The translations under genes were made by a program, and so were the position numbers. The notes under the pieces are model-generated. The model ran no database searches and had not been told where the DNA came from. It saw only the letters and a list, made by a program, of their open reading frames with translations. Below, one piece after another: positions 8,826-39,820 of a stretch of DNA of 64,000 nt (within the stretch, counting starts at the first letter, position 1; every line of letters starts with the position of its first letter). The stretch is from Rugamonas violacea (GTDB taxonomy: Bacteria; Pseudomonadota; Gammaproteobacteria; Burkholderiales; Burkholderiaceae_D): positions 1-64,000 of the forward strand of contig NZ_JAEMNU010000040.1 in assembly GCF_016461825.1 (NCBI RefSeq), given 5' to 3'.

Positions 8826-8843
8826 CTTGTGGAATAATGGGCC

Positions 8844-9865: not shown

Positions 9866-10327
9866 CTTCAAGCCTGAAAAACGGCCTGTTTTTCCTCGCA
9901 AAAATCAAACCTCACAGCAATAAATATTTCAAAAATATACATTTCCGCACCGCACCAAAAGTGTAAATAAAGCATCTAATTATTTGTGAACTTTTTGTGT
10001 CTTTTTTTTGACAATTTGTTAAATATTCGAATTCGGCAATTTGCCACTGGCATAAAGCAAGCTGAGCATTTTTTTCGCGAAACTTGCATAACGTAAGTTA
10101 ACATCGTTTAACTGAGCCATATACACACAGTAAACCGCCCGCGTATTACCACAATTTGACAGTTAATATTATCTGTTGGATCAAAGTGACAAAAGAACAT
10201 TTTTGATAAAAATTGTCACAACGGTGCTATATTTCCGTTGGCAAATAGGTATCAACTATCAGATTGATTGCCATTCGAACGATGGTTACCGCCATTCATT
10301 TCTCAACACTTTTTGCGATGTCCCGAC
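9866..10327 (+). promoter_or_regulatory. A+T-rich leader and promoter region of the NRPS operon
   Basis: About 460 bases without a gene, strikingly A+T-rich for this genome. One possible promoter is TTGATA (10203-10208) with TATATT (10228-10233), but the 19-base spacing is long. TTGACA-like hexamers also occur at 10008 and 10156 without a good partner. TGACAATT (10009-10016) and AATTGTCA (10211-10218) are inverted copies of the same octamer, which also forms a palindrome before the toxin gene at 52908-52938. The composition fits silencing by an H-NS/MvaT-type protein, which is inference. Confidence 0.45.
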
Positions 10328-13300
10328 ATGGTCTTTAGCAACTCGGTTTTGGTAATTCCAGCCCCCGGCGAGCAGGTGCCGGCCCACTTCAACGACACCG
10401 CGCGCAGCTATCCCCGCAGCGCCGTGATCCCACAAATCTTCGAACGGATTGCCGCCGCCGCGCCCGAGCGCATCGCCCTGGACGACCTGACGGAGCAGCT
10501 CAGTTATGCCGAGTTGAACCGCCGCGCCAACCGACTGGCCCATCTGCTGCTCGAACTGGGCGTGGGACCGGACCGCCGCGTCGCCCTGCTGTTCGAACGC
10601 GGCATCGGCATGGTGGTTGCCAGCCTGGCCGTGCTGAAGGCCGGCGGCGCCTATCTGCCGCTCGATCCGGCCACGCCGCCGGCCCGTCTGGCCGAGATCC
10701 TGGCCGACGCCGCGCCGCAAGCGCTGCTGTGCACCAGCGCCATCGCCGGCCTGGACTGCGGCGCCGCCCTGGTCGAGCTGGCGCGCGACGGTGAACGGCT
10801 GGCGCGCCAGCCCGAACACAATCCCGACCCGGCCGCCAGCGGACTGCATGCCCGCCACCTGGCCTATGTCATGTACACCTCCGGCTCGACCGGCGCGCCG
10901 AAGGGCGTGATGATCGAGCACCGCAGCGTGCTGCGGCTGGCGCTCAACAGCGGCTTCGCCCCGCTCGACGAGCGTGATTGCGTGGCCCATTGCGCCAACC
11001 CGGCCTTCGACGCCGCCACCTGGGAGATCTGGGGCGCGCTGCTGAACGGCGCCCGCCTGCTGGTGCTGGCGCCGGACACGGTGTTGCGGCCGCGGGCCTT
11101 CAACGACGCGCTGATCGCCGGCGGCGCCACCGCGCTGTGGCTGACGGCCGGCCTGTTCCACGAATACGCCGACGCGCTGGAGCCAGCCTTCGGCCGACTC
11201 ACCTGGCTGCTGGCCGGCGGCGACGTGCTCGATCCCAAGCGCCTGGCCGCCGTGCTGGCCAAGTCCAGCCGGCCGCGCCATCTGCTCAACGGCTACGGTC
11301 CGACCGAGACCACCACCTTCGCCACCACCTTCGAGATCGACGCCGCCGCCGCGCGGGCCGGCGCCGTCCCCATCGGCCGGCCGATCGGCAACACCCAGGT
11401 GCGCATCCTCGACGAACACGGCCAACTGCTGCCCTTCGGCGCCACCGGCGAAATTTGCATCGGCGGCGACGGCGTGGCGCGCGGCTATCTGAACCGGCCG
11501 GAGCTGAGCGCCGAGCGTTTCGTGGCCGATCCATTCAGCACCGAGCTCGACGCCCGCCTCTACCGCAGCGGCGACCTGGGGCGATGGCGGGCCGACGGCA
11601 ACATCGAATTCGTCGGCCGCAACGACTTCCAGGTCAAGCTGCGCGGCTTCCGCATCGAGCTGGGCGAGATCGAGGCGCGTCTGGCGGCCTGCTCCGGCGT
11701 GGACGAGGCGCTGGTGCTGCTGCGCGAGGACTACCCGGACGACAAGCGCCTGGTCGGCTACCTGCGCCAGCAGGCCGGCGCCGACGCCATCGACACAGGC
11801 GCCGTGCGCGCCGCGCTGAAACGCGCGCTGCCGGCCTACATGCAGCCCAGCGCCCTGCTGGTGTTGGCGCGCTTTCCCTTGACGGTGAACGGCAAGATCG
11901 ACCGCAAGGCGCTGCCGGCACCGGCCCGCGCCGACGCCGCCGGGAGCGACTACAACGCGCCGGAAGGCGACAGCGAACAAGCCTTGGCGCTGTTGTGGCA
12001 GGAGCTGCTGGCGCTGCCGCAGGTGGGCCGGCACGACAACTTCTTCGAGCTGGGCGGCCATTCCTTGCTGGCGCTGCGCTTGATGTCGCGCCTGCGCCAG
12101 CAGTTCGACGTCGAACTGACGCCGCGCGTGCTGTTCGAACATCCCACCGTCGCCGGCCTGGCCGCCCAGTTGAGCGGCGCCGACCGGGTCCGCTGGGTGC
12201 CCATGGCCGCCGGCGAACCTGGCGCCGCCGGCACAACCGGCACAGCCGGCATCCCGGCCGGGCACGCGCCCTTGTCGCACGCCCAGCAGCGCCTGTGGTT
12301 CCTGCACCAGCTCGACTCCGCCGCCGGCCTGGCCTACCACATGCCGGTGGCCTACCGGCTCAGCGGCACGCTGCACGAGGACGCGCTAAAGGCCGCGCTG
12401 GCGCGCATCGTGCAGCGCCACGACAGCCTGCGCACGCGCTTTGTCATGCTCGACGGCGCGCCGGTGCAGCGCGTCGCGGCGGCCAAGCAGACCCCGCCGT
12501 TGCTGGAGCAAGACCTGAGCTACCTGGACGAACCCGAGCAGGCGGCCGCGCGCGGCGCCCTGTACGCCGCCGAGATCGCCCGTCCCTTCGACCTGGCCGC
12601 CGGCCCGCTGCTGCGGGTGATGCTGCTGCGCTTGGCGCCGGAGCTGCACGAGCTGCTGCTGATCCAGCACCACATCATCTCGGACGGCTGGTCGATGGGT
12701 GTGCTGAAAACCGAGCTGGGCGCGCTGTACAGCGCCTTCAGCCAGGGCCGGCCCGACCCGCTGCCGCCGCTGCCGTTGCAGTACGCCGATTACGCCGCCT
12801 GGCAACGCCAGCCGGCGCAGGCCGCCGCGCTGCAACGGCAACTGGGATTCTGGCGCGCCCACCTGGAGGGCGCGCCGGTGCTGCTGGAGCTGCCGACCGA
12901 CCGGCCACGGCCGGCGCGGCAAAGCTATCGCGGCGGCCGCGTCGCCTTCGCGCTGGACGCCAACGCCAGCGCGGCCCTGCGCCAGCTCGGCCAGCGCCAC
13001 GGCGCCACCCTGTTCATGGTGCTGCTGGCCGGCTGGTCCGCCTTGCTGGCGCGCCTGAGCGGCCAGGACGACATCGTGGTCGGCACGCCGGTGGCCAACC
13101 GCCAACGGCCGGAAGTGGAGGCCTTGATCGGCTTCTTCGCCAACACGCTGGCGCTGCGCGTTCGCCTGGACGGCAATCCCGCCACCGCCGCCCTGCTGGC
13201 GCGGGTGCGCGAGACCACGCTGGCGGCCTACGAGCACCAGGAGCTGCCGTTCGACCACCTGGTCGAAGCGCTCAATCCGCCGCGCAGCATGGCGCACGGC

Positions 13301-15631
13301 CCGCTGTTCCAGACCGTCCTGGCGCTGGACAACACGGGCGCCGAGCATCTCGACCTGCCGCCCGAGCTGGCGCTGCGCGAAACCAGCCTGCCGCAAAACA
13401 CCACCCACTTCGATCTGTCGCTGTTGTTGGCCGACGACGGCCGCCAGGTGGCCGGCCACATCGAGTACGCCAGCGACCTGTTCAACCACGCCACCATGCG
13501 GCGCCTGGCCGACAGCCTGCACATCCTGTTGGCCGGCATGGCCGCCGACGACACGCTGCCGCTCAGCCGCCTGCCGCTGCTGGCGCCGGCGGCGCGCCGG
13601 CAGTTGCTGGTCGACTTCAACGCCACCACCACTGCGTATCCGCGCGACGACCTGATCCACCGGCAGTTCGAACGCCAGGCCGCCGCCACGCCGGACGTGA
13701 TCGCGCTGTGCTTCGGCGCCGAACGTCTCAGCTACGCCGAGTTGAACCGGCGCGCCAACCGTCTGGCCCACGCCCTGCTCGCGCTCGGCCTGGCGCCGGA
13801 CGACCGCGTCGCGCTGCAGCTGTGGCGCGGCAGCGCGCTGGTGGTGGCCATGCTGGCCGTGCTGAAGGCGGGCGCCGCCTACCTGCCCTTGGAACCGGAC
13901 GCGCCCGCCGCCCGCCTGGCGCACATCCTGAGCGATGCCGCGCCGCGCGCGCTGCTGTGCGCGCCGGCCACCGCGCGCTCGCCGCAATTGGCGACGCTCG
14001 GTGCGACGTTCAACGGAGTTCTGCTGCAGCTCGACGAACACGGCGGCGGCGCCGACGGCGACCAACTCGGCATCGCCAGCCGATCCGACGCCAACCCGGA
14101 CGCCGCCGCCCTCGGCCTGCACACGCGCCACCTGGCCTACGTGATCTACACCTCCGGCTCGACCGGCCTGCCGAAAGGCGTGATGGTCGAGCACCGCAAC
14201 GTGCTGCGGCTGGTGCTCAACAGCGGCTACGCGCCGTTGACGGCGGAGGACTGCGTGGCGCACTGCGCCAACCCGGCCTTCGACGCCGCCACCTGGGAGA
14301 TATGGGGCGCGCTGCTGAACGGCGCCCGCCTGCTGGTGCTGCCGGCGCAGACGGTGCTGCGGCCGCAGGCGCTCAACGCCGCCCTGCTCGACGGCGGCGT
14401 CACCGCGATGTTTCTGACCACCGGGCTGTTCCACGAATATGTCGACGCGCTCGAACCGGCCTTCGCCCGCCTGCGCTGGCTGATGACCGGCGGTGAGGTG
14501 CTCGACCCGCAGCGCGCCGCCCGCGTGCTGGGCAAGGCGGGCCGGCCGCGCCACCTGCTCAACTGCTACGGACCGACCGAGACCACCACCTTCGCCACCA
14601 CCTGCCAGCTCGGCGCCGAGACGGCGCAGGCGCGCGCCATCCCCATCGGCCGGCCGATCGGCAACACCAGCGTCTACCTGCTCGATGGCGAGGATCAGCC
14701 GGTGCCGATCGGCGTGGCCGGCGAGATCTGCATCGGTGGCGACGGCGTGGCGCGCGGCTATCTGAACCAGCCGGTGCTGAGCGCACAACGCTTCGTCACC
14801 GATCCGCTCAGCGGCGTCGAGGGCGCCCGCATGTACCGCAGCGGCGACCTGGGACGCTGGCGCGCCGACGGCAACCTCGAATTCATCGGCCGCAACGACG
14901 AGCAACTGAAGCTGCGCGGCTTCCGCATCGAACCGGGCGAGATCGAGGCGGCGCTGACGGCCTGCCCCGGCGTGCGCGAAGCGCTGGTGCTGCTGCGCGA
15001 GGACAGCCCCGGCGAGCGCCGTCTGGTCGGCTATTTCAGCGCGACCGACGGCGCCGACCTCAAGCTGGAAACGGTGCGGCAGGCTTTACGGGCGGCGCTG
15101 CCCACCTACATGCTGCCCAGCGCCCTGGTGCGGCTGGCGCGCTTTCCGCTGACGCCGAACGGCAAGGTGGACCGGCGCGCCCTGCCGCCACCGGGCGACA
15201 CCGCGGCGCCGGACCACGCGGCGGACAGCACCACGGCGGCGCCCGCCGCGGCGCTCAGCGCCGAGGAGGAGGAGCTGGCCGAACTGTGGCGCGCGCTGCT
15301 GCGCCCGCCACCGCTTGCCGCCGGCGACAATTTTTTCGACCTCGGCGGCCACTCGCTGCTGGCGGTACGGCTGGTGGCCCGCATCGAACAGCACTACGGC
15401 ATCGAGTTCCCGCTCGACGCCGTGTTCGAGGCGCCGACACTGAACCAGATGGCGGCACGCATCGCCATCCTGCGGGCCGACTACCAGCCCGAGGCCCTCG
15501 ACGACCTGCTGCGCCAGCTGGAAGGCCTCAGCGACGAGCAGGCCAGCCAGCGTCTGGGCCACGCTTGGACGCCACCCACCTCCATGCCACCGCCGCAACA
15601 GCCGCAGCGGCCGGAGCCATCACAACAATAG
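10328..15631 (+). CDS. Nonribosomal peptide synthetase, modules 1-2 (A-T-C-A-T)
   Basis: This protein starts peptide assembly. The order in 1767 residues is A1 (from about 35; core YTSGSTGAPKG near 183), T1 (LGGHSLL, Ser near 577), C (HHIISDGWS near 781), A2 (from about 1112; YTSGSTGLPKG near 1273) and T2 (LGGHSLL near 1672). Without a leading C domain, module 1 is the loading module. By-eye specificity codes are DAWWLGGTFK (A1), close to the classical Val code DAFWIGGTFK, and DAWFMGCTFK (A2), probably also aliphatic (Val/Ile). No epimerase domain is seen. I chose the ATG at 10328; an in-frame TTG at 10268 adds 20 residues, and neither has a strong ribosome site. The gap to the next NRPS gene is 75 bases. 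Confidence 0.93.
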   Translation: MVFSNSVLVIPAPGEQVPAHFNDTARSYPRSAVIPQIFERIAAAAPERIALDDLTEQLSYAELNRRANRLAHLLLELGVGPDRRVALLFERGIGMVVASLAVLKAGGAYLPLDPATPPARLAEILADAAPQALLCTSAIAGLDCGAALVELARDGERLARQPEHNPDPAASGLHARHLAYVMYTSGSTGAPKGVMIEHRSVLRLALNSGFAPLDERDCVAHCANPAFDAATWEIWGALLNGARLLVLAPDTVLRPRAFNDALIAGGATALWLTAGLFHEYADALEPAFGRLTWLLAGGDVLDPKRLAAVLAKSSRPRHLLNGYGPTETTTFATTFEIDAAAARAGAVPIGRPIGNTQVRILDEHGQLLPFGATGEICIGGDGVARGYLNRPELSAERFVADPFSTELDARLYRSGDLGRWRADGNIEFVGRNDFQVKLRGFRIELGEIEARLAACSGVDEALVLLREDYPDDKRLVGYLRQQAGADAIDTGAVRAALKRALPAYMQPSALLVLARFPLTVNGKIDRKALPAPARADAAGSDYNAPEGDSEQALALLWQELLALPQVGRHDNFFELGGHSLLALRLMSRLRQQFDVELTPRVLFEHPTVAGLAAQLSGADRVRWVPMAAGEPGAAGTTGTAGIPAGHAPLSHAQQRLWFLHQLDSAAGLAYHMPVAYRLSGTLHEDALKAALARIVQRHDSLRTRFVMLDGAPVQRVAAAKQTPPLLEQDLSYLDEPEQAAARGALYAAEIARPFDLAAGPLLRVMLLRLAPELHELLLIQHHIISDGWSMGVLKTELGALYSAFSQGRPDPLPPLPLQYADYAAWQRQPAQAAALQRQLGFWRAHLEGAPVLLELPTDRPRPARQSYRGGRVAFALDANASAALRQLGQRHGATLFMVLLAGWSALLARLSGQDDIVVGTPVANRQRPEVEALIGFFANTLALRVRLDGNPATAALLARVRETTLAAYEHQELPFDHLVEALNPPRSMAHGPLFQTVLALDNTGAEHLDLPPELALRETSLPQNTTHFDLSLLLADDGRQVAGHIEYASDLFNHATMRRLADSLHILLAGMAADDTLPLSRLPLLAPAARRQLLVDFNATTTAYPRDDLIHRQFERQAAATPDVIALCFGAERLSYAELNRRANRLAHALLALGLAPDDRVALQLWRGSALVVAMLAVLKAGAAYLPLEPDAPAARLAHILSDAAPRALLCAPATARSPQLATLGATFNGVLLQLDEHGGGADGDQLGIASRSDANPDAAALGLHTRHLAYVIYTSGSTGLPKGVMVEHRNVLRLVLNSGYAPLTAEDCVAHCANPAFDAATWEIWGALLNGARLLVLPAQTVLRPQALNAALLDGGVTAMFLTTGLFHEYVDALEPAFARLRWLMTGGEVLDPQRAARVLGKAGRPRHLLNCYGPTETTTFATTCQLGAETAQARAIPIGRPIGNTSVYLLDGEDQPVPIGVAGEICIGGDGVARGYLNQPVLSAQRFVTDPLSGVEGARMYRSGDLGRWRADGNLEFIGRNDEQLKLRGFRIEPGEIEAALTACPGVREALVLLREDSPGERRLVGYFSATDGADLKLETVRQALRAALPTYMLPSALVRLARFPLTPNGKVDRRALPPPGDTAAPDHAADSTTAAPAAALSAEEEELAELWRALLRPPPLAAGDNFFDLGGHSLLAVRLVARIEQHYGIEFPLDAVFEAPTLNQMAARIAILRADYQPEALDDLLRQLEGLSDEQASQRLGHAWTPPTSMPPPQQPQRPEPSQQ

Positions 15632-15706
15632 GCAGCAGACACCAACGCGGCGCACGCCGCCCTTGCCCCCCAATAGCCACAACCACGACTCACACTGGAT
15701 GACATC

Positions 15707-18700
15707 ATGACTGATTTGAACCAACGACTGGCCGGCCTGTCGCCGGAAAAACGCGCCCTGCTGATGCAGCAGCTGAGCAAACAAACCACCCCGCCGGTGA
15801 GCCGCGACATCGGCCGCCGGGCGCGCCCGGCCCGCGTGCCGCTCTCCTTCGCCCAGCAGCGCCTGTGGTTCCTCGACCAGTTGGAGCCTGAATCGCCGGT
15901 CTACAACGTGCCCAGCGCGATGTGGATGCAGGGCCGGGCCAACGCCGCCGTGCTGGAACGGGCGCTGGGCGAAATCGTCGCCCGCCACGAAGTGCTGCGC
16001 ACCGTCATCGTGCAGGACGAGGCCGGCCCGCACCAGCGGGTGCTGGCGGCGGCGCCGTTCACGCTGGAGCGGCTCGACGTCGGCACGCTGCCGGCCGAAC
16101 AGCGCCGCGCGGCGGCGCTGCGCCTGGCGCGCGACGAGGCGCGCCGTCCGTTCAAGCTGTCCAGCGGCCCGCTGCTGCGCGCAGTGCTGATCCGGCTCGA
16201 CGAGCAGCAGCACCTGTTCGTGCTGAACGCCCACCACATCGCCTTCGACGGCTGGTCGCACGGCGTCATCTTCGCCGAGCTGTGCGCGCTGTACGACGCC
16301 TTCCAGGCCGACCAGCCGTCGCCACTGGCCGAGCTGCCGATCCAGTACGCCGACTACACCTTGTGGCAAAACGAGCTGCTGGCCGAAGGCAGCGCCACGC
16401 TGGCGCGCCAGCTGGACTATTGGAAGGAGCGCCTGGCCGGCCAATTGCCGGTGCTGGAGCTGCCCGGCGACCGGCCGCGCCCGGCCGTGCAGAGCAAGCG
16501 CGGCGCCGCCCGCTGCCACCGCATCGCCGCCACCCAGTACGAGGACATCAAGCGCTTCGGCCGCGACGAGGGCGCCACGCCGTTCATGGTGGTGGCCGCC
16601 GCCTTCCAGACGCTGCTGGCGCGCTACTCCGGCCAGGACGACCAGATCGTCGGCGTCGGCGTGGCCAACCGCCGCCGCCAGGAAATGGAACCGCTGGTCG
16701 GCTTCTTCGTCAACACGCTGGCGCTGCGCACCGACCTGTCGGGCGACCCAAGTTTCCGCGAGCTGCTGGGCCGCGTCAAGGAGGGCACGCTGGGCGCCTA
16801 CTCGCACCAGGACCTGCCGATCGAACGGCTGCTGGAGGAGCTGGACCTGGAGCGCTCGCTAAGTCATTCGCCGCTGTTCCAGGCCATGCTGTTCTTCCAA
16901 AACTTCCCGCCGCAAGAGGTCAATCTACAGGGCCTGACCTTGATCCCGACCGAACACGGCGCGCTCGACGCCGGCACCGCGCGGGCCGACCTGACCTTGT
17001 TCGCCGGCGAGGAGGACGGCGGCCTTAGCCTGTATCTGGAATACGCCACCGACCTGTTCGACGCCGCCACCATCGACGCCTTCGCCGGCCACCTGGGCCA
17101 GCTGCTGCGTGCGGCCGTCGCCGCGCCGCAGCTGGCCCTGTCCAAACTGGAGATCCTGGCGCCGGACCAGCGCCGTCAATTGCTACATGACTGGAACGCC
17201 AGCGCCCAACCGATGCCGGCGCAGGCCAGCGTGCACGCCATGTTCGAAGCCCAGGCCGCCCGCACGCCGGACGCCGTCGCCTTGCGCCACCTCGGCCGCA
17301 GCGTCAGCTACGCCGAGCTGGATCGCCGCGCCAACGCGCTGGCCCGGGCGCTGACGGTGCAAGGCGTCGGCCCGGGCGACCTGGCCGGCCTGTTCGTGCG
17401 CCGCTCGCCGGAGATGATGGTGGCCCTGCTGGGCATCCTCAAGGCCGGCGCCGCCTACCTGCCACTCGACCCGGCCTATCCGGCCGAGCGGCTGGCCTTC
17501 ATGCTGGAGGACTCGGCCGCCCGCGTCGTCGTCACCGAACGCGCCCTGCTGGAGCAATTGCCGGCCCAGGCGCCCGCCACATTGCTGCTCGACGCGCTGG
17601 GCGAAGTGGCCGAAGTGGCCGGGCTGGCCGAGGCGCCGGCTATCGCCCTGGCCGCCGACGCGCTGGCCTACGTGATCTACACCTCCGGCTCGACCGGCCG
17701 GCCCAAGGGCGTGCTGCTGCCGCACCGCGCGGTGGTCAACTTCCTCGCCTCGATGGCGCGGCGGCCCGGCATGACGGCGGCCGACCACGTCTGCGCCGTC
17801 ACCACGCTGTCGTTCGACATCGCCGTGCTCGAACTGCTGCTGCCGCTGACGCTGGGCGCCAGCATCGAGATCGCCGACAGCGCCACCGCCGCCGACGGCG
17901 CCGCCTTGGCGCGCCTGATCGAGAGCAGCGGCGCCACCTTCATGCAGGCCACGCCGGCCACCTGGCGCATGCTGCTTGAAGCGGGATGGAGCGGCCGCGC
18001 CGGTCTGACCGCGCTGAGCGGCGGCGAGGCGCTGACGCGCGAGCTGGCCGACCGCTTGCTGGAGCGCTGCGGCGCGCTGTGGAATATGTATGGCCCGACC
18101 GAGACGACGATCTGGTCGACGCTGGAACAGGTGACGCCGGGCGAGGCAGCTATCAGCATCGGCCAGCCGATCGCCAACACGCAAATCTACGTGGTCGACG
18201 CCCACATGCAGCTGCAACCGGCCGGCGTGCCGGGCGAAATGCTGATCGGCGGCGCCGGCGTGGCGCTGGGCTACCTGCGCCGCGCCGAGCTGACGGCGGA
18301 GAAGTTCATCGCCGATCCGTTCAATCCAGCCACGCCGGACGCCAAACTGTACCGCAGCGGCGACCTGGCGCGGCGCTGCCGCGACGGCCGCATCGAGGTG
18401 CTGGGCCGGATCGACAACCAGGTCAAGCTGCGCGGCTACCGCATCGAACTCGGTGAGATCGAGGCGGTGCTGCAGGAGCATGCGGCGCTGGCCCAGGCGG
18501 TGGTGATCTGCCGCGAAGACCAGCCCGGCGACAAGCGCCTGGTGGCCTACCTGGTCGCCGCGGCCGGCGCCAGCGTGCCGCCGGCCGCCGAGCTGCGCGC
18601 CCACAGCGCCGGCCGTCTGCCCGAATACATGCTGCCGTCGGCCTTTGTCGCCCTGCCCCAGCTGCCGTTGACGCCAAACGGCAAAATCGACCGGCGCGCG

Positions 18701-19081
18701 CTGCCCAAACCGGATGGCGCCAGTGTCGAGGGCGCCGGCTACCGCGCCCCGCGCAACGCCGACGAGGAGGCGCTGTGCACGCTGTGGGCCGAGGTGCTGG
18801 CGCTGCCGCAGGTCGGCATCGACGACGACTTCTTCAAGCTGGGCGGCCACTCGCTGCTGGCGACGCGGCTCATCATGCGCGTCCAACAAACCCTGGGCAC
18901 CGAGCTACAACTACGCAGCCTGTTCGAGGCGCCCACCGTGGCCGCCTTCGCCGAGCTGCTGCTGCGCACCCGCCTCGACGATGTCGGCGATGGCGCCCTG
19001 GCCGCCATGCTCGACCAGCTCGAAGGTCTTTCCGACGCCAACATCGACGCGCTGCTGGCCGGCGCCGTGGAGCAACAATGA
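15707..19081 (+). CDS. Nonribosomal peptide synthetase, module 3 (C-A-T), Gly-specific by code
   Basis: The 1124 residues hold C (FAQQRLWFLDQLEPESPVYN near 45, HHIAFDGWS near 176), A (from about 511; YTSGSTGRPKG near 657) and T (LGGHSLL near 1044). The A-domain code read by eye is DILQLGMIWK, which agrees with the published glycine code (DILQLGLIWK) at nine of ten places. It is therefore expected to add glycine as residue 3. The stop overlaps the next start in ATGA, so the two proteins are made in step. Confidence 0.93.
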   Translation: MTDLNQRLAGLSPEKRALLMQQLSKQTTPPVSRDIGRRARPARVPLSFAQQRLWFLDQLEPESPVYNVPSAMWMQGRANAAVLERALGEIVARHEVLRTVIVQDEAGPHQRVLAAAPFTLERLDVGTLPAEQRRAAALRLARDEARRPFKLSSGPLLRAVLIRLDEQQHLFVLNAHHIAFDGWSHGVIFAELCALYDAFQADQPSPLAELPIQYADYTLWQNELLAEGSATLARQLDYWKERLAGQLPVLELPGDRPRPAVQSKRGAARCHRIAATQYEDIKRFGRDEGATPFMVVAAAFQTLLARYSGQDDQIVGVGVANRRRQEMEPLVGFFVNTLALRTDLSGDPSFRELLGRVKEGTLGAYSHQDLPIERLLEELDLERSLSHSPLFQAMLFFQNFPPQEVNLQGLTLIPTEHGALDAGTARADLTLFAGEEDGGLSLYLEYATDLFDAATIDAFAGHLGQLLRAAVAAPQLALSKLEILAPDQRRQLLHDWNASAQPMPAQASVHAMFEAQAARTPDAVALRHLGRSVSYAELDRRANALARALTVQGVGPGDLAGLFVRRSPEMMVALLGILKAGAAYLPLDPAYPAERLAFMLEDSAARVVVTERALLEQLPAQAPATLLLDALGEVAEVAGLAEAPAIALAADALAYVIYTSGSTGRPKGVLLPHRAVVNFLASMARRPGMTAADHVCAVTTLSFDIAVLELLLPLTLGASIEIADSATAADGAALARLIESSGATFMQATPATWRMLLEAGWSGRAGLTALSGGEALTRELADRLLERCGALWNMYGPTETTIWSTLEQVTPGEAAISIGQPIANTQIYVVDAHMQLQPAGVPGEMLIGGAGVALGYLRRAELTAEKFIADPFNPATPDAKLYRSGDLARRCRDGRIEVLGRIDNQVKLRGYRIELGEIEAVLQEHAALAQAVVICREDQPGDKRLVAYLVAAAGASVPPAAELRAHSAGRLPEYMLPSAFVALPQLPLTPNGKIDRRALPKPDGASVEGAGYRAPRNADEEALCTLWAEVLALPQVGIDDDFFKLGGHSLLATRLIMRVQQTLGTELQLRSLFEAPTVAAFAELLLRTRLDDVGDGALAAMLDQLEGLSDANIDALLAGAVEQQ

Positions 19082-25175: not shown

Positions 25176-25211
25176 GGCGCGCGCCACGCAAGTGGATCAC
25201 AACAATCTTCG

Positions 25212-29154: not shown

Positions 29155-29173
29155 TATAGAAAGCGACCATCCA

Positions 29174-31432: not shown

Positions 31433-31434
31433 CC

Positions 31435-33213
31435 ATGAGCGCCATGCAAATCATCGTCCCCATGTCCGGCTTCGGCGAACGCTTCCGCCGCGCCGGCCAC
31501 CGGCTGCCCAAGCCGCTGATCGAGGTCGACGGCAAACCGATCATCGCCCACGTGATCGGCATGTTCGACGCCGACTGCGAATTCATCTTCGTCTGCAACC
31601 AGGAGCACCTGGCCGAGCCGGCCTACCGCATGGCCGAAACGCTGCGCCGCTGGTGCCCTCAGGGCCGCATCGTCGCCATCGCGCCGCACAGCCTGGGGCC
31701 GGTGCACGCCGTGCTGCAGGCGCTGCGTCAGGCAACCCAGTTGATCGATCCGGCGCGGCCGGTGCTGCTCAACTACTGCGACTTCTGCTGCTATTGGAAC
31801 TGGCAGCATTTCAAGCAGTTCGTCGCAGCCAACGCCTGCGATGGCGCCATCCCCGCCTACAAGGGCTTTCATCCGCACACGCTGGGCAGCACCAACTACG
31901 CCTATCTGCGTGAAACCGAGGGCTGGGTCGAGGCGATCCAGGAGAAGCAGCCCTACACCGACAACAGGATGGAGGAATACGCCTCCAGCGGCAGCTACTA
32001 CTTCGCCAGCGGCCGGCTGATGGAGGAGGCGCTGCGCGGCGCCGTCGAGCAGCAGTTGACCGTCGGCGGTGAATACTACGTCAGCCTGGCCTACCGCCCG
32101 CTGTTGCAGGCGGGCCGCCGCATCGCCGTGTATCCGCTGCAGCACTTCATGCAGTGGGGGACGCCGCAGGACCTGGCCGAGTACCAGGGCTGGTCGGCCG
32201 CCTTCGCCCGTCTGGTGCAAGGCCCCGAGGCGGCGCCGTCGCCCGCCGGCGCTGTGCTGCTGCCGATGGCCGGCATGGGCCAGCGCTTCGTCGACCAGGG
32301 CTATGCGCTGACCAAGCCGCTGATCGAGGTGTCCGGCCGGGCCATGGTCGAGCAGGCGCTGCGCGACCTGCCGCCGGCCGCGCAGCACTGCTTCGTGCTG
32401 CGCGCCGACATGCCGGGCCACGACGAGATCGCCGCCGAGCTGCGCCACAGCCATCCCGCCGCGCAGATCGTCAGCGTGGCGGCGCTGACCGAGGGCCAGG
32501 CCTGCACCGCCCTGCTCGGCGCCGAGGCGCTGCTGCGGGCGCCGGCCGAAGGCGGCAACGGCGACAGCAGCGACAGCACCAACAGCACCAGCAGCGGCGG
32601 CCCGCTGACGGTCGGCGCCTGCGACTTCGGCATGCTGTACGACGCGGCGGCGCTACAGGCGCTGCTGGCCGATCCGGCGGTCGACCTGATCGTCTGGGGC
32701 GCGCGCGGCAACGCCAACGCCATCCGCCGGCCGCAGATGTTCGGCTGGATAGACGCCGACCAGCAGGGCCGCATCCGCCGCATCTCGGTCAAGACGCCAC
32801 TGGCCGCGCCGGCCAGCGATCCCATCGTACTGGGCGCCTTCACCTTCCGCCGCGCCGACGACCTGCGCCGCCTGGTCAAGCTGCTGGTCGCCCGCGACGG
32901 CCGAATCAATGGTGAGTTCTACCTCGACTCCTGCATCAACGACGCCATCGCGCTGGGGCTGGACTGCCGCCTGTTCGAGGTCGACCACTACCTGTCCTGG
33001 GGCACGCCGGACGACCTGCGCACCTTCGAGTACTGGCAGTCCTGCTTCCACAAATGGGACGGCCACCCGTACACGCTGGAGGGCGACGGCCGCGTCCCGC
33101 CCGCCAAGGTGGAACAACTGGCGCGGCGCTTCCGCGCCAGCGTGCCGGCCGCGCCGGGCCGCCACCAGCCGGCGCCAAGCCTGACGCCGGCGCGGCTGAC
33201 GGAGCCGACATGA
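31435..33213 (+). CDS. Tandem nucleotidyltransferase (two sugar-NTP-transferase domains)
   Basis: The 592-residue protein contains two similar NTP-transferase domains. Domain 1 (residues 5-265) starts IIVPMSGFGERFRRAGHRLP followed by KPLIEVDGKPII; domain 2 (about 274-560) starts LLPMAGMGQRFVDQGYALT followed by KPLIEVSGRAMV. Both carry the glycine-rich nucleotide loop and the KPL(I)EV motif. A Ser/Asn/Thr linker interrupts domain 2 near 373-390. Such enzymes activate sugar or polyol phosphates to NDP forms. Two full domains in one chain are unusual; they may make two different donors. The start is two bases after the previous stop and the end overlaps the GT2 gene. Confidence 0.8.
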   Translation: MSAMQIIVPMSGFGERFRRAGHRLPKPLIEVDGKPIIAHVIGMFDADCEFIFVCNQEHLAEPAYRMAETLRRWCPQGRIVAIAPHSLGPVHAVLQALRQATQLIDPARPVLLNYCDFCCYWNWQHFKQFVAANACDGAIPAYKGFHPHTLGSTNYAYLRETEGWVEAIQEKQPYTDNRMEEYASSGSYYFASGRLMEEALRGAVEQQLTVGGEYYVSLAYRPLLQAGRRIAVYPLQHFMQWGTPQDLAEYQGWSAAFARLVQGPEAAPSPAGAVLLPMAGMGQRFVDQGYALTKPLIEVSGRAMVEQALRDLPPAAQHCFVLRADMPGHDEIAAELRHSHPAAQIVSVAALTEGQACTALLGAEALLRAPAEGGNGDSSDSTNSTSSGGPLTVGACDFGMLYDAAALQALLADPAVDLIVWGARGNANAIRRPQMFGWIDADQQGRIRRISVKTPLAAPASDPIVLGAFTFRRADDLRRLVKLLVARDGRINGEFYLDSCINDAIALGLDCRLFEVDHYLSWGTPDDLRTFEYWQSCFHKWDGHPYTLEGDGRVPPAKVEQLARRFRASVPAAPGRHQPAPSLTPARLTEPT

Positions 33214-33908
33214 GATTCTCCCTCGTCATCCCTTGCTATAACGAGGCCGCCAACCTGCCGCTGCTGCTGGAACGCTGCGCGCCGCTGGGCCGCCTCGACG
33301 GCGTCGAGGTGATCCTGGTCGACAACGGCTCGACCGACGCCAGCGCACAGGTGCTGGCCGCGCTGCTGCCGGCCTGCCCCGGCTGCCGCAGCGTGCGGGT
33401 CGAGCGCAACCAGGGCTACGGCCACGGCATCCTGGCCGGCCTGGCTGCCGCCAGCGGCGAGATCCTCGGCTGGACCCACGCCGACCTGCAAACCGATCCG
33501 CAGGACGCGCTGCGCGGCCTGGCCCTGTTCGAGCGCCACGGCGACGCCATCTTCGTCAAAGGCCGCCGCCACGGCCGTCCGCTGGCCGACGTGCTGTTCA
33601 CGGCCGGCATGAGCTGCTTCGAAACCCTGCTGCTGCGCGCGCCGCTGTGGGACATCAACGCCCAGCCGACGCTGTTCCCACGCCGCTTCTCCAACAGCTG
33701 GCGCGCCGCGCCGGACGATTTCTCGCTCGACCTGTACGCCTACTATCAGGCGCGCCGGGCCGGCCTGGCCGTGCACCGCTTTCCGGTGCGCTTCGGCCAG
33801 CGCGCCCACGGCGTGTCGCACTGGAACGTCAACTGGGCCGCCAAGCGCAAATTCATCCAGCGCACCGTCAGCTACAGCCTGCAACTGAAAGCCGCATTGA
33901 AACCATGA
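33210..33908 (+). CDS. Glycosyltransferase family 2
   Basis: This 232-residue protein has the GT-A fold: FSLVIPCYNEAANLPLLLE at the N-terminus, VILVDNGSTDASAQVL near 35 and the metal-binding THADLQTDP near 88. It has no obvious membrane segment. It lies between the nucleotidyltransferase and the GDPD-like gene with ATGA overlaps on both sides, so it probably uses the donor made by the preceding protein. The acceptor is unknown. Confidence 0.88.
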   Translation: MRFSLVIPCYNEAANLPLLLERCAPLGRLDGVEVILVDNGSTDASAQVLAALLPACPGCRSVRVERNQGYGHGILAGLAAASGEILGWTHADLQTDPQDALRGLALFERHGDAIFVKGRRHGRPLADVLFTAGMSCFETLLLRAPLWDINAQPTLFPRRFSNSWRAAPDDFSLDLYAYYQARRAGLAVHRFPVRFGQRAHGVSHWNVNWAAKRKFIQRTVSYSLQLKAALKP

Positions 33909-34519
33909 ACCTGATCTCACACCGCCGCAACACCCTGGCCCAGCTGCGCGACACGCCGCCGCATTACGGCGTCGAAATCGACATCCGCAGCCACGGCGAA
34001 CAACTGATCCTGCAGCACGACGCACTGACGCCGGGCGAGCCGCTCGAACCCTGGCTGGCCGAATACCGCCACGGCACGCTGATCCTCAACGTCAAGGAGG
34101 AAGGCCTGGAGGCGCCGCTGATCGACTTGATGCGCAGCTACGGCATCAAGGACTACTTCTTCCTCGACCAGTCCTTCCCCTTCCTGGTCAAGTGGGCGCG
34201 CGCCGGCGAACGGCGCTGCGCGGTGCGCGTCTCCGAATACGAATCCATCGACACCGCGCTGGCCCTGGCCGGACAGATCGACTGGGTCTGGGTCGACTGC
34301 TTCACCCGCTTCCCGCTGGACGGCGCAGCCGCGCTGCGCCTGCGCCAGGCCGGCTTCAAACTGTGCCTGGTGTCGCCCGAACTGCAGGGCCGCGAGGCCA
34401 GCGAAGGCATCGCCTCCTTGGCGGCCCAGCTAGCCGAACAGGGCATCGTCGCCGACGCGGTCTGCACCAAGCGGCCGGACCTGTGGCGCGAGCCATACCA
34501 AACGGCGGCGCAACCATGA
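33905..34519 (+). CDS. Glycerophosphodiester phosphodiesterase-like protein
   Basis: The 204-residue protein shows the GDPD active-site pattern: His6-Arg7 (SHRRN), Glu24-x-Asp26 (GVEIDIRS) and His38 (LQHDALTPGE), then NVKEEGL near 61 and DYFFLDQSFP near 81. GDPD enzymes cleave glycerophosphodiesters. The protein is slightly short for the family. Inside a sugar-nucleotide operon it could trim or turn over a glycerophosphate-type substituent; this is inference. Confidence 0.72.
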   Translation: MNLISHRRNTLAQLRDTPPHYGVEIDIRSHGEQLILQHDALTPGEPLEPWLAEYRHGTLILNVKEEGLEAPLIDLMRSYGIKDYFFLDQSFPFLVKWARAGERRCAVRVSEYESIDTALALAGQIDWVWVDCFTRFPLDGAAALRLRQAGFKLCLVSPELQGREASEGIASLAAQLAEQGIVADAVCTKRPDLWREPYQTAAQP

Positions 34520-36561
34520 GACGTTTGTTCACCCATCCGCTGTTCGGCATCGGCCTGGCGCTGCGTCTGCTCATGATGGCCCTGCTGGTGCCGAAGGCGG
34601 CCGCCGAGTGGTACGCGCCCTTCATGGACGCCAGCGTGGCCCACTTCTCGCTCGATCCCTGGGGCGCCTTCCTGGCCCAGGGCGGCGCGCCGCAGGCCTT
34701 CCCCTACGGCGTGGCGATGTGGCTGCTGCTGTTGCCCTTGACCGCGCTGGCCAAGCTGGCCGGCTTCGGCGCCCTGCACGCCTACGCCTTCAGCCTGATG
34801 GCGGCCGACTGCATGCTGCTGCTGCTGTTGCGCCGCCTGCTGCCCGAGCGCGACGGTCTGCTGCTGGCGTTGTACTGGTTGTCGCCCATCGTGCTGCTGG
34901 CCACCTACGGCCTGGGCCTGAACGACCTGGTGCCGACGCTGCTGCTGACGGCGGCGCTGTGGCGCACCCGCCAGCGCCGGCTGTTCCAGGCTGGCGCGCT
35001 GTGCGCGGCGGCGGTCTCCGCCAAACTGAGCATGGTGCTGGCGCTGCCCTTCTTCCTGGTCTACCTGCTGCGCAACCGCAGCCTGCGCGCCGCGCTGCCG
35101 GACTACCTCAAGGGCGGCGCGCTGGCCGGCGCCTTGCTCGGCCTGCCCTTCCTGGCCTCGCCGGCCGCGCTGCGCATGCTGCTGCAAAATCCGGAGATGG
35201 GCAAGGTCTACCAGTTCGCCCTGCAAGTGGGCGGCGACACGGTGCTATACGTGATGCCGCTGGTGTATCTGCTGACGCTCTACCTGGCCTGGCGCGTGCG
35301 GCGCATGAACTTCGACCTGTTCAGCGCCCTGCTCGGCCTGGGCTTCCTGCTGGTGGTGCTGTTGACACCCGCCTCGCCCGGCTGGTTCCTGTGGCTCGTG
35401 CCGACCTTGGTGGCCTACCAGATGGGCAGCGGCCGCATGGCCATCGCCCTCAGCACGGCCTTCGCCGCCTTGTTCGTGCTGGAGAACCTGCCGCTGCCGG
35501 CCCTGTCGACATTGGCGACGGCGGCAATGCCGGCGTCGGCCCTGCAACTGCCGCTGCTGCCGCTGCGCCACACCGTGCTGACCGGCCTGGGCATCGTGCT
35601 GGCGCTGCGCATCTGGCGCGAGACGGTAGGCTCGAACGACTACTTCCGCCTCAGCCGCAAGCCCTTCGTGATCGGCATCGCCGGCGACTCCGGCGCCGGC
35701 AAGGACACCCTGGCCGAGTCGCTGCGCGGCCTGTTCGGCGGCCACTCGGTGGCCCACCTGTCCGGCGACGACTACCACCTGTGGGACCGGCAGAAACCGA
35801 TGTGGCAGGTGATGACGCATTTGAGCCCGCTGGCCAACGACCTCGAATCCTTCGCCACCGACCTGCTGGCCCTGAGCGACGGCAAGGCCATCCTGTCGCG
35901 CCATTATGACCACGGCAGCGGCAAGATGAGCCGCCCGCAGCACGTCGCCAGCAACGACTTCATCATCGCCAGCGGCCTGCACGCGCTGTACCTGCCGGTG
36001 CTGCGCGAATGCTACGACCTGGCCATCTACCTCGACATCGACGAGAGCCTGCGGCGCTACTACAAGCTGCAGCGCGACGTGCTGGTGCGCGGCCACAGCG
36101 CCGAAAAGGTGCGCAGCTCGCTGGCCCAGCGCGAGCCTGACTCGGCGCGTTTCGTCCGGCCGCAGGCCCGCCACGCCGGCCTGGTGCTGGCGCTGCAGCC
36201 GGTCCAGCCCAACCTGCTGGAGGGGCCGCTGGGCAGCGAGGCGCCGCGCGTCAGGCTGCTGGTGCGCTCGCGCCAGGGCCTCAACGAACTGTCGCTGCGC
36301 CGCGTGCTGGTGGGCGTATGCGGCCTGCACGTCGACCTGAGCATGGACGGCGAGGCCAGCGAAATCACCCTCACCATCGAGGGTGAGGCCAGCGCGGAGG
36401 ACATCGCGATGGCGGCCGCCATGCTATTCCCGCGCATCATGGAATTCCTCGACATGCGGCCGCAATGGCGCGAAGGCGCACTCGGGCTGATGCAGTTGAT
36501 CGCATTGGCACATATTAACCAGGCGCTCAGTCGGCGCCTGCTTTGGCAGACATCATCATGA
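34516..36561 (+). CDS. Fusion: polytopic GT-C-like membrane protein with a uridine-kinase-like P-loop domain
   Basis: The 681 residues form two parts. Residues 1-375 are polytopic membrane, about ten hydrophobic segments, with the acidic-loop layout of GT-C glycosyltransferases (MDASVAHFSLDPWGAFL near 35, LNDLVPTLLL near 136). Residues about 385-600 are a soluble kinase of the uridine kinase/phosphoribulokinase type: Walker A in GIAGDSGAGKDTLAESL, then LSGDDYHLWDR, SRHYDHGSGKM and LDIDESLRRYYKLQRD. The frame is continuous without a frameshift. I know of no described protein with this architecture. It overlaps both neighbours by ATGA. Confidence 0.75.
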   Translation: MRRLFTHPLFGIGLALRLLMMALLVPKAAAEWYAPFMDASVAHFSLDPWGAFLAQGGAPQAFPYGVAMWLLLLPLTALAKLAGFGALHAYAFSLMAADCMLLLLLRRLLPERDGLLLALYWLSPIVLLATYGLGLNDLVPTLLLTAALWRTRQRRLFQAGALCAAAVSAKLSMVLALPFFLVYLLRNRSLRAALPDYLKGGALAGALLGLPFLASPAALRMLLQNPEMGKVYQFALQVGGDTVLYVMPLVYLLTLYLAWRVRRMNFDLFSALLGLGFLLVVLLTPASPGWFLWLVPTLVAYQMGSGRMAIALSTAFAALFVLENLPLPALSTLATAAMPASALQLPLLPLRHTVLTGLGIVLALRIWRETVGSNDYFRLSRKPFVIGIAGDSGAGKDTLAESLRGLFGGHSVAHLSGDDYHLWDRQKPMWQVMTHLSPLANDLESFATDLLALSDGKAILSRHYDHGSGKMSRPQHVASNDFIIASGLHALYLPVLRECYDLAIYLDIDESLRRYYKLQRDVLVRGHSAEKVRSSLAQREPDSARFVRPQARHAGLVLALQPVQPNLLEGPLGSEAPRVRLLVRSRQGLNELSLRRVLVGVCGLHVDLSMDGEASEITLTIEGEASAEDIAMAAAMLFPRIMEFLDMRPQWREGALGLMQLIALAHINQALSRRLLWQTSS

Positions 36562-37328
36562 TTAAAATATCCAACGGCGATCGCTTCGACCGCGTCCCCA
36601 ACGCCATCCTGTTCGACACCGACAACACCCTGTACCACTACGACCCGGCCCACGCGCTGGCGATGAGCGCGGTGCGCGACAAGGTCGCCGCCACCTTCTC
36701 GATCGACCCGGCCGACTTCGACCGCGCCTTCGCCACCGCCCGCAGCGAGGTCAAGGCGCGGCTGAAGGACACCGCCGCCTCGCACAGCCGCCTGCTGTAC
36801 CTGCAGCGCATGCTGGAGATCATCGGCCTCGGCTCGCAGGTGCTGCTGGCGCTCGACCTGGAACAAACCTACTGGCGCACCTTCCTCGGCAAGGCCGTGC
36901 TGTTCGACGGCGTCAAGGAGCTGCTCGACGACATACGCCTGCTCGGCATCCCGACCGCCATCGTCACCGACCTGACGGCGCAGATCCAGTTCCGCAAGAT
37001 GGTCTACTTCGGCCTGGACCGCTACTTCGACTACATCGTCACCAGCGAGGAAGCCGGCTACGACAAGCCGCACGGCGCCCAGTTCGAGCTGGCGCTGGAG
37101 AAGGTGCGGCCGAGCGGCGATTGCATCTGGATGATCGGCGACAATCCGGTCAACGACATCGGCGGCGCGCGCCGGCGCATCGACGCCGTCACGCTGCAAA
37201 AGCTGCACCAGGGCGTGCAGCCGGGCCAGGGCGAGAACGCCGCCGACGCCGTGTTCGACGAATTCGGCCAGGTGCGCCGCCTGCTCGGCCGGCTTGGGCA
37301 ATTGGGCCAACCGGGAGCGACGCATTGA
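36558..37328 (+). CDS. HAD-superfamily phosphatase
   Basis: The 256-residue protein has all four HAD motifs: the nucleophile block LFDTDNTLYHY near 17, the Thr motif AIVTDLT near 135, the Lys in YDKPHG and the acidic MIGDNPVNDIGG near 190. It hydrolyses a phosphate ester, probably a sugar phosphate made by the neighbouring aldolase or kinase; the exact substrate is unknown. The chosen ATG overlaps the kinase stop (ATGA); a TTG fifteen bases upstream is less likely. Confidence 0.85.
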   Translation: MIKISNGDRFDRVPNAILFDTDNTLYHYDPAHALAMSAVRDKVAATFSIDPADFDRAFATARSEVKARLKDTAASHSRLLYLQRMLEIIGLGSQVLLALDLEQTYWRTFLGKAVLFDGVKELLDDIRLLGIPTAIVTDLTAQIQFRKMVYFGLDRYFDYIVTSEEAGYDKPHGAQFELALEKVRPSGDCIWMIGDNPVNDIGGARRRIDAVTLQKLHQGVQPGQGENAADAVFDEFGQVRRLLGRLGQLGQPGATH

Positions 37329-38437
37329 ACGCGCCCGCCGCACGCGGCACCGGCGAGGCCGCCGTCGTGGGCCAGCGCGCCACGCTGAGCGACTACTGCG
37401 CCAGCATCGGCGCCGAGCCGCTGCTGGTGCAGGGCGCCGGCGGCAACGCCTCGTGGAAGGACGGCGACACCTTGTGGGTCAAGGCCTCCGGCACCTGGCT
37501 GGCCGAGGCGCGACAGCGCGACATCTTCGTGCCGGTCGACCTGGCGCATCTGCGCGGCGCCATCACCAGCGGCCAACTGGACGTGACGCCGCGCCCGCTC
37601 GGCGACAGCGGCCTGCGCCCGTCGATCGAAACGCTGCTGCACGCGCTGCTGCCGCAGCCGGTGGTGCTGCATCTGCACGCCGTCGAACTGCTGGCCCAGT
37701 TGGTACGGCCCGGCTTCGCCGAGCGCCTGCGCGGCTTGCTGGCGAGCCAGACGGAAACGCTGCCGGCCTGGCTCGCGCTGGGCTACCACAAGCCCGGCCT
37801 GCCGCTGGCGCGCGCGGTGGCCGACGGTCTGCGGCGCCAACCCGACACACAGATCGTCTTCCTGCAAAACCACGGCGTGGTGATCGGCGCGGCCGACGCC
37901 GAGGCGGTGGACGCCATCCTGCGTCGGCTGCTGCGGCTGTGCGCCACGCCGCCGCGCCGCGTCGAGCCCCAGGTCCAGGCTCAGGTCCAGGCCCAGGTCC
38001 AGGTCCAGGCCGGGCCGCCGATAACGCCGCCCAGCGCCGCCGACGGCGCGCCCATGCAAGCGGTGGCGGACGCCGGCGTGCAGCAATTGGCGCTCGATCC
38101 GCAGTTGTACCGGCGGCTGGCGCGCGACTGGGCGATCTGCCCCGACCACGTGGTGTTCCTGGGCGCCACGCCGCGCTGCCACGACAGCGTCGCCGACTTC
38201 CTCGCCACGCAAGCGGCCTGCCGCCACGCGCCTTGGCCGGAGCTGCTGTTCATCGGCGCCGCCGGCGTCTACACGGCGGTAGACTTCAGCGCCGCCAAGC
38301 TGGCGCAGTTGCGCTGCTACTACGACGTGCTGGCGCGGCAGGACCAGCACACCCCGCTCACCGTGCTGGACCAGGCGCAGCTGGCCGAACTGCTCGATTG
38401 GGACGCGGAAAAGTACCGTTTGGCACTGTCACGATGA
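37325..38437 (+). CDS. Class II aldolase-family protein
   Basis: This 370-residue protein has the class II aldolase/adducin fold: LLVQGAGGNASWKDGDTLWVK near 34, the zinc HxH in VVLHLHAVELL near 113, and QNHGVVIGA near 180 with another metal His. Such enzymes cleave or form sugar phosphates with a dihydroxyacetone-phosphate-type partner. A variable linker of QVQA repeats lies near 216-229. The start is a TTG overlapping the HAD stop (TTGA), consistent with coupling. It is the last gene of the long operon. Confidence 0.78.
   Translation: MNAPAARGTGEAAVVGQRATLSDYCASIGAEPLLVQGAGGNASWKDGDTLWVKASGTWLAEARQRDIFVPVDLAHLRGAITSGQLDVTPRPLGDSGLRPSIETLLHALLPQPVVLHLHAVELLAQLVRPGFAERLRGLLASQTETLPAWLALGYHKPGLPLARAVADGLRRQPDTQIVFLQNHGVVIGAADAEAVDAILRRLLRLCATPPRRVEPQVQAQVQAQVQVQAGPPITPPSAADGAPMQAVADAGVQQLALDPQLYRRLARDWAICPDHVVFLGATPRCHDSVADFLATQAACRHAPWPELLFIGAAGVYTAVDFSAAKLAQLRCYYDVLARQDQHTPLTVLDQAQLAELLDWDAEKYRLALSR
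37970..38011 (+). repeat. In-gene CAGGTCCAGGC repeats
   Basis: CAGGTC-type units are repeated imperfectly and encode a QVQA-rich linker in the aldolase gene. All changes keep the frame. This is a likely slippage site with linker-length variation between strains. Confidence 0.7.
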
Positions 38438-39661: not shown

Positions 39662-39820
39662 ACAGCGCCGCGGCACCGGCGCGCGCAGCGGACGCGCCGG
39701 CCGCCGGCAGGCTCAGCCCGTCTCGGGTACAATGCAGCCTCTTCTGTTAGACGCATGGCACGCCACTACGCGCGCCGCTACAGTCGGCCCGCCACCGGCC
39801 CGCCGACGCCATCAAAAATT

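Follow-up and report, generated by a model that had tools for sequence, protein, structure and literature searches.

A nonribosomal peptide gene run of Rugamonas violacea with a GT87 glycosyltransferase and a putative, exchangeable sugar-donor cassette

Several pathways are known in which a lipid-linked sugar is attached to a nonribosomal peptide. For ramoplanin (Ram29), mannopeptimycin (MppH/I), and A40926 (Dbv20), the accessible parts of the literature describe a membrane glycosyltransferase of the GT-C type that uses a polyprenyl-phosphate sugar, in these systems mannose, to modify an exported product of a nonribosomal peptide synthetase (NRPS), and they do not describe the polyprenyl-phosphomannose synthase as part of the cluster. 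In this report, we analyze a 64,000-nucleotide stretch of DNA from Rugamonas violacea (NZ_JAEMNU010000040.1, positions 1 to 64,000; hereafter the window), taken from a genome of 6.93 Mb in 173 contigs, in which 14 genes at 10328-38437 (g1 to g14, all on the plus strand) join an NRPS line to a sugar cassette. Unlike the Ram29-type systems, this run brings its own donor genes, and its membrane transferase for lipid-linked sugars is a GT87 protein, whereas Ram29 is described in those sources merely as GT-C; attachment of the sugar to the peptide is predicted. Building on the observed gene content, gene order, co-occurrence, module exchange, and intact motifs, we favor with modest confidence the reading that the operon directs synthesis of a small nonribosomal peptide bearing a sugar, which GT87 would add from a lipid-linked donor outside the inner membrane.

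The biffamycin A cluster of Streptomyces, as far as its accessible description goes, likewise encodes a small NRPS tetrapeptide with a modified tryptophan and carries lipid-linked sugar genes within the cluster; bifOP are needed for biffamycin A, BifO being the polyprenyl-phosphate-mannose synthase and BifP the transferase. It differs in its SurE macrocyclization, its mannose, its host, and its single donor gene, compared with an exchangeable multi-gene cassette here, and the description mentions neither DUF6875 nor a reductase, both of which are present in this run. Antibiotic 5812-A/C from Streptomyces roseoflavus, according to the parts of the report available, is a nonribosomal peptide with a kynurenine residue and arabinose, but it is larger and cyclic, and the likeness is one of product description, not of genes. 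A lipid-linked donor synthase, a flippase, and a GT-C enzyme also make up the three-component GtrA/GtrB/Gtr* and Citrobacter youngae pentofuranose systems in the accounts accessible; there, the Gtr acceptor is the O-antigen rather than the peptide predicted here, and the C. youngae systems rely on GT136 and a flippase of the MATE type. The mycobacterial arabinofuranose pathway (DPPR synthase, DprE1, DprE2) has homologues of all three enzymes 3′ of the DUF5916 gene in relatives of the run (Janthinobacterium and genome G074, below), whereas this set, including a UbiA-type phosphoribosyltransferase, is absent from the window. Finally, the pyrrolobenzodiazepines anthramycin and sibiromycin combine a kynurenine-pathway monooxygenase with a reductase-ended NRPS; their available descriptions give two NRPSs (A-PCP and C-A-PCP-RE), a kynurenine hydrolase, and an anthranilate-type block. 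The present run is not of that type, having four modules, an oxidized residue predicted at the last position, and no kynureninase among the Pfam and NCBIfam matches of its 14 genes. The original prediction knew of no described system with this gene set. For the exact set, this stands as far as the literature was searched (no paper among the matches listed; preprints and most subscription papers fell outside coverage), but ramoplanin and biffamycin are close precedents. Lipid-linked sugars on NRPS peptides, three-component systems, and a kynurenine-arabinose peptide are thus known already, and the unusual part is the exchangeable donor modules. The genes of the run are as follows.

g1, 10328..15631, plus strand: NRPS A-T-C-A-T, modules 1-2, without a starter condensation (C) domain (Pfam)
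g2, 15707..19081, plus strand: NRPS C-A-T, module 3 (Pfam); adenylation (A) code DILALGMIW
g3, 19078..23790, plus strand: NRPS C-A-T-thioester reductase, module 4 (Pfam); A code DAGAMGHVC
g4, 23787..25175, plus strand: major facilitator superfamily (MFS) exporter (Pfam)
g5, 25224..26093 (alternative start 25212), plus strand: DUF6875 protein (Pfam)
g6, 26090..27487, plus strand: kynurenine 3-monooxygenase (KMO) family enzyme (PDB 6fox/5fn0, E ~1e-97)
g7, 27484..29154, plus strand: GT87 integral-membrane glycosyltransferase (Pfam, above cut-off; aligned from 10 clusters)
g8, 29174..31432, plus strand: DUF5916 protein (Pfam, partial, 75 residues; CBM9 match below cut-off)
g9, 31435..33213, plus strand: two tandem sugar-nucleotidyltransferase domains, first cassette gene (Pfam, two stretches)
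g10, 33210..33908, plus strand: GT2 glycosyltransferase (Pfam; NCBIfam models all below cut-off)
g11, 33905..34519, plus strand: glycerophosphodiesterase-like by eye (no Pfam or NCBIfam match)
g12, 34516..36561, plus strand: membrane domain fused to a phosphoribulokinase-like kinase (Pfam, NCBIfam)
g13, 36558..37328, plus strand: HAD phosphatase (best NCBIfam model below cut-off)
g14, 37325..38437, plus strand: class II aldolase (Pfam, NCBIfam)

The place where the two parts of the run meet is indicated by relatives that possess only one of them. Close relatives of g6 (70-79% identical) occur in three Janthinobacterium genomes (G338, G203, G288) and in one of a further genus (G074). The order NRPS-MFS-DUF6875-KMO-GT87-DUF5916 is kept in G338, G288, and G074, and in G203 from within g3, where the contig ends, while the 40-kb stretches of two Janthinobacterium genomes and of G074 contain no match to g9-g14. 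Because this order persists without g9-g14, GT87 and DUF5916 are assigned to the peptide genes: judged by gene order, the joint is between g8 and g9 (31432/31435), and g9-g14 is the exchangeable part. The original prediction had placed the joint at 27484, between monooxygenase and GT87; that boundary is rejected, since the NRPS is accompanied by both GT87 and DUF5916 in Janthinobacterium and G074, and by GT87 in Lysobacter. GT87 is present in all 10 reductase-type clusters whose stretch could contain it (an eleventh, of Lysobacter Root916 at L097, spans only 18 kb and is excluded from the count), and the window and Lysobacter proteins are 49-50% identical.

The converse arrangement, a cassette by itself, is also found. 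Of 392 genomes in the family, 13 have a match to g12: the four with the Rugamonas-type run and nine in other genera. Eight of these nine stand-alone cassettes keep the g9-g14 order on one strand as far as the contig reaches, with extra genes in some; in the ninth (G213, a 5.6-kb contig), g9 lies on the opposite strand, and g10 and g13 were not found on the contig. None of g1-g8, GT87 included, has a match in the nine stretches, three of which are short contigs (9.4, 5.6, and 22.7 kb). In every cassette read except the contig-cut one of G080, the tandem g9 domains find matches along most of their length. Relatives with the two halves at separate loci had been named beforehand as evidence that would speak against a coupled run; the nine cassette-only genomes, Janthinobacterium, and G074, each with one half alone, are partly of this kind, whereas in Rugamonas and the Lysobacteraceae, the halves co-occur.

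Within the run, 9 of the 13 junctions are 4-base overlaps: ATGA at g2/g3, g3/g4, g5/g6, g6/g7, g9/g10, g10/g11, g11/g12, and g12/g13, together with g13/g14, where g14 starts with TTG. The widest spacing is 75 bases (g1/g2), and the remaining gaps are 36 or 48 bases at g4/g5, depending on the g5 start, 19 at g7/g8, and 2 at g8/g9. Recomputed, the ends and junctions agree with the original prediction of 14 coupled plus-strand genes with a 75-base maximum gap, including the overlaps it had noted between NRPS and exporter (g3/g4) and between monooxygenase and GT87 (g6/g7), each of 4 bases. A consensus scan of 23000-40000 gave 3 terminator-like sites, compared with 8.6 in shuffles; the single plus-strand site is inside g5, and none falls at the g6/g7 or g8/g9 joints. 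The coupling is more than chance, as R. rubra, R. rivuli, and R. aquatica share both the gene order and the g6/g7 overlap, at a site with the following borders.

8838..9752, plus strand: LysR-type regulator gene (Pfam LysR), upstream of the run, left border of the insertion site
10186..10213, plus strand: promoter-like pair 5′ of g1, a consensus match only
39755..40570, plus strand: DUF481 gene (Pfam), outside the run, right border of the insertion site

Within the genus of the window genome, g9 is matched in 8 of 74 genomes, near full length in four (the window genome, R. rubra ATCC 43154, R. rivuli FT103W, and R. aquatica FT29W; the last three are G038, G036, and G006) and in one domain only, at 31-33% identity, in the other four. 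In 4/4 of the full-length genomes, all 14 genes keep one order and are flanked by the same gcl/LysR genes on one side and DUF481 on the other, always with the 4-base g6/g7 overlap and a g8/g9 gap of 2-3 bases. The LysR gene, which may regulate the run, is found in 38 of the 74 genomes and is 94-98% identical at the same site with or without the run. Among the 34 genomes with LysR but without the run, the nine nearest (94-95% identity) were read: DUF481 follows LysR within 0-2.9 kb in eight of them, the ninth (G001) has no DUF481 in the 8.5 kb read, and no partial run was seen in any. The sugar and peptide genes thus behave as one unit, as had been proposed, being whole in four genomes and wholly missing from the site in 8/9 relatives.

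The same pairing recurs in the Lysobacteraceae under another layout. In Lysobacter strains Root76 and cf310, a three-module NRPS, MFS, DUF6875, and KMO occupy one strand, and the cassette runs on the opposite strand as aldolase, g9, g10, g11, g12, g13, GT87. Of 335 Lysobacteraceae genomes, 24 contain KMO (E up to 1e-150) and 19 contain g9 (E up to 1e-100). Every g9 carrier is KMO-positive, and g9 occurs in none of the 311 KMO-negative genomes (Fisher p 9e-27, a descriptive value only, as it ignores shared descent). The two genes share a contig in 17 of the 19, 16 times at 15.0-15.5 kb and once at 10.7 kb, and lie on separate contigs in the other two. Three of the 24 KMO-positive genomes (Root76, cf310, ISL-50) were read gene by gene. 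A Lysobacter "core without sugar genes" was considered and dropped, the 10-kb flank having been too short; the longer stretch contains a divergent cassette.

In Janthinobacterium and G074, a different set fills the slot behind DUF5916. In G074, the genes are closely spaced or overlapping and encode a flippase-like protein (PF03706), a HAD-UbiA fusion, and homologues of DprE1 and DprE2. The fusion reaches 653 bits with the general UbiA model, over its cut-off, and 173 bits with the decaprenyl-phosphate phosphoribosyltransferase model (cut-off 207); the DprE1 homologue scores 339 bits (cut-off 500) and matches PDB DprE1 at E 5e-71. All four genes have matches in Janthinobacterium G338 and G288, and the first two have matches in G203, where the contig then ends; DUF5916 is about 100 bases from UbiA in Janthinobacterium, measured to the nearest in-frame start. 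The set likely acts as a polyprenyl-phosphate-arabinose pathway, although its scores with the specific models stay below their cut-offs. DprE1 was found in none of four cassette genomes (G000, G038, G780, G781), in a search that included no positive genome, with a query that finds Janthinobacterium separately. None of the four DprE-type genomes is one of the 13 g12 carriers, and presumably all four belong to the same 392. The kept pairing of GT87 and NRPS with swapped sugar genes suggests a peptide decorated with a sugar beyond the inner membrane. A further, tentative proposal, which we hold to be somewhat doubtful, is that the peptide line and GT87, both constant, receive the same kind of lipid-linked pentose from interchangeable and unrelated pathways; the Rugamonas/Lysobacter cassette of six or seven genes would then be an undescribed second polyprenyl-phosphate-pentose route, shared with polysaccharide loci. 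Such a natural donor swap before one transferase would offer a ready comparison of what GT87 accepts and a route to the cassette product.

As to the origin of the cassette, a quick-method tree of five concatenated proteins from 14 loci (including the two of six Lysobacteraceae loci with g9 at hand and leaving out G213) nests the Rugamonas cassettes among the stand-alone ones of their own family and sets the Lysobacter cassettes apart on a long branch (0.98). A common origin of the NRPS-linked cassettes as one clade was rejected marginally by the approximately unbiased (AU) test (p 0.045), for a group chosen after the pairwise identities were known. We lean toward two separate recruitments of the cassette beside an NRPS, which, if true, would strengthen the functional link between the two.

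The cassette itself appears suited to making and loading an activated sugar. Both nucleotidyltransferase domains of g9 retain the G-x-G-x-R and K-P motifs (by eye), and g10 would be GtrB/dolichol-phosphate-sugar-synthase-like, resembling polyprenyl-phosphate sugar transferases. A simple scan places nine hydrophobic segments in g12, whose kinase part scores 195 bits with the phosphoribulokinase model (cut-off 236), and g13 scores 161 bits with the ribulose-1,5-bisphosphate 5-phosphatase model (cut-off 330). A GtrA gene lies between g9 and g10 as an extra gene in R. rivuli and R. aquatica, and GtrA matches occur at 8/9 stand-alone and 4/6 Lysobacteraceae loci; taken with the GtrA of relatives, the cassette resembles the donor portion of such three-component systems. 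A pentose might be its sugar, in keeping with the kinase and phosphatase and with the arabinose-type set that other genomes have in this slot. Within the glycosylated-peptide reading, there is nevertheless a substantial though lesser chance that GT87 accepts a heptose, a tetrose, or another unusual sugar instead: the kinase, phosphatase, and aldolase families are broad, and all three proteins fall below the pentose-specific cut-offs, whereas GT87 homologues about 50% identical pair with an arabinofuranose-type pathway in relatives.

The peptide half is, by its A, C, and thiolation (T) domains and its terminal NAD-dependent reductase, an NRPS line with reductive release. The reductase closing g3 (PF07993, 211 bits), which had not been mentioned earlier, has an intact YxxxK motif, and C4 has an intact HHxxxD. 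The two A codes of g1 are DAWGLGGTF and DAWGMGCTF. The A4 code DAGAMGHVC is identical in 10/10 NRPSs read, including that of Lysobacter ISL-50 (nine residues compared, the tenth, K, being set by rule; the fourth adenylation domain of G203 is not among the codes read, and A2 of G338 is split over two frames, leaving its code incomplete). In ISL-50, KMO and DUF6875 stand beside a different five-module NRPS that shares the A4 code at module 4 (L132-L133) and has no reductase match, so that this strain may use the same building block independently. The link from A4 to g5/g6 rests mainly on ISL-50, because A3 is nearly as constant in the reductase-type clusters and the other domains of ISL-50 differ. 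An invariant A4 code beside DUF6875 and the monooxygenase would provide a testable marker of an oxidized tryptophan building block.

KMOs of solved structure are by far the best match of g6, which keeps the residues aligned to Arg84, Tyr98, Asn369, and Tyr404, positions that we take to be those of Pseudomonas KMO; by sequence it is a KMO, with kynurenine as its predicted substrate. VioC, the best NCBIfam model, was rejected as its identity, as the score is far below cut-off and the KMO structures match better. A second FAD monooxygenase of the window genome (contig C160:16590-17825), 32% identical to g6 and of a kind common in family members, might be VioC of violacein biosynthesis, although this is a guess. 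All three Lysobacter genomes that were checked carry, away from the cluster, another KMO-like gene with 42-43% identity to g6, so the cluster KMO is a separate enzyme. Tryptophan 2,3-dioxygenase was found in 8/9 hosts but not in G074; in R. rivuli, a match directly adjoins another KMO-like gene (G036:C11:197351-199450). The g5 protein matches DUF6875 at 194.4 bits (cut-off 24.5), with one copy per genome in 9/9 genomes, and its Cys75 and His166 are invariant in 12/12 homologues; our guess is that they may bind haem. Proteins of this family ("cytochrome P422") are reported, in the accessible part of a 2026 paper citing a preprint, to bind haem and to be able to oxidize L-tryptophan. The g8 protein begins with a single hydrophobic, signal-like segment (hydropathy) and is probably located in the outer membrane; a search at E 1e-100 through 369 genomes of the class matched it in the window genome only.

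A scheme consistent with these observations, in which every substrate, the GT87 acceptor, the flip, and the role of g8 are as we infer them, would run as follows. Together, g5 and g6 would turn tryptophan into an oxidized block, probably of the 3-hydroxykynurenine type; g1-g3 would join four residues, with A4 loading this block at the last position; and the terminal reductase would release the chain as an aldehyde or alcohol, which g4 would export from the cytoplasm. In Rugamonas and Lysobacter, the cassette would activate a sugar, probably a pentose, and load it onto polyprenyl phosphate, to be flipped outward, whereas in Janthinobacterium and G074, the DprE1/DprE2/UbiA arabinofuranose pathway would supply the lipid-linked sugar. 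GT87 in the inner membrane would then transfer the sugar from lipid to peptide, and g8 would let the product pass the outer membrane. "The peptide is glycosylated" was the best of the options offered by the original prediction and appears probable here; the sugar and peptide genes do form one unit, but the joint between them had been misplaced. If true, Gram-negative genera such as Rugamonas, Janthinobacterium, and Lysobacter would share a family of peptide aldehydes or alcohols that are derived from tryptophan and glycosylated, of which none was found in the literature searched.

Several observations weigh against this scheme. The cassette also stands without an NRPS and may therefore serve the producer's own surface, and two of the stand-alone cassettes (G206, G348) lie among polysaccharide genes; Pfam annotation of their neighborhoods gives a Wzm/Wzt-type exporter in G206 and a protein with three GT1 stretches in G348, whereas the G100 cassette is, by the look of its neighbors, apparently outside a polysaccharide locus. 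Five of the 24 KMO-positive Lysobacteraceae are without g9, and ISL-50 keeps g5/g6 with no g7-g14 match in 40 kb. A3 is identical in 6/9 reductase-type clusters, the other three having one or two changes. There is no GtrA in the window or in the R. rubra run, unlike in relatives, although the window has GT2 and GT87. None of the g12, g13, and g14 products reaches the curated cut-off of a pentose-enzyme model, and in G074, the DprE1, DprE2, and phosphoribosyltransferase models all fall below their specific cut-offs, the DprE2 homologue (183 bits, cut-off 250) being better matched by a generic SDR model (351 bits).

The strongest rival explanation, which we consider unlikely yet worth serious weight, is self-protection: the peptide would be unglycosylated, and GT87 with its donor module would modify a surface molecule of the producer, such as lipid A or O-antigen, to spare it harm from the exported peptide, in the way that sugars added by ArnT-type enzymes give protection from polymyxin. 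It would predict an equally strong co-occurrence with the NRPS, and it draws support from the polysaccharide neighborhoods of G206 and G348 and from GtrA/GT2/GT-C systems, which the accessible sources describe for surface glycans. Against it, GT87 travels with the NRPS clusters and was not matched in the nine stand-alone stretches; moreover, the donor varies by lineage while GT87 is constant, a pattern that would be more in keeping with an unchanging acceptor than with a surface that varies. That the cassette was merely inserted behind the Rugamonas NRPS operon, with an unrelated job of its own, is highly improbable: the nine stand-alone cassettes in the family and the nesting of the Rugamonas cassette among them would allow it, but the pairing recurs in the Lysobacteraceae under another layout, a lipid-sugar set fills the same slot in Janthinobacterium and G074, and the 2-3 base g8/g9 joint is kept in 4/4. 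Coupling of the peptide to a surface glycan, or export together with one, as also suggested originally, has nothing beyond gene proximity in its favor and is very improbable, as the Pfam matches of the 14 genes (g11 being matchless) include no glycan polymerase, ligase, or Wzm/Wzt exporter and the exporter present is of the MFS type.

A few further features were observed at the loci read. In the cassettes of G348 (L044:11361-13085) and G100 (L048:11032-12798), a membrane-type protein of 575-589 residues without a Pfam match follows the HAD gene, in the position of GT87 in Lysobacter; in G206, one of 573 residues follows the aldolase. These proteins of 573-589 residues are possibly acceptor-specific transferases. 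Directly 3′ of the run in the window, 38587-39132 encodes a carboxymuconolactone decarboxylase family protein with no match in the stretches of three Rugamonas species. Beyond it, a small open reading frame at 39320-39661, with no Pfam match, has a leader-like N-terminus and a short Ile-rich C-terminus and resembles, by eye, a ribosomal peptide precursor; its copy in R. rubra is 88% identical, and the corresponding site in R. rivuli and R. aquatica gave no match.

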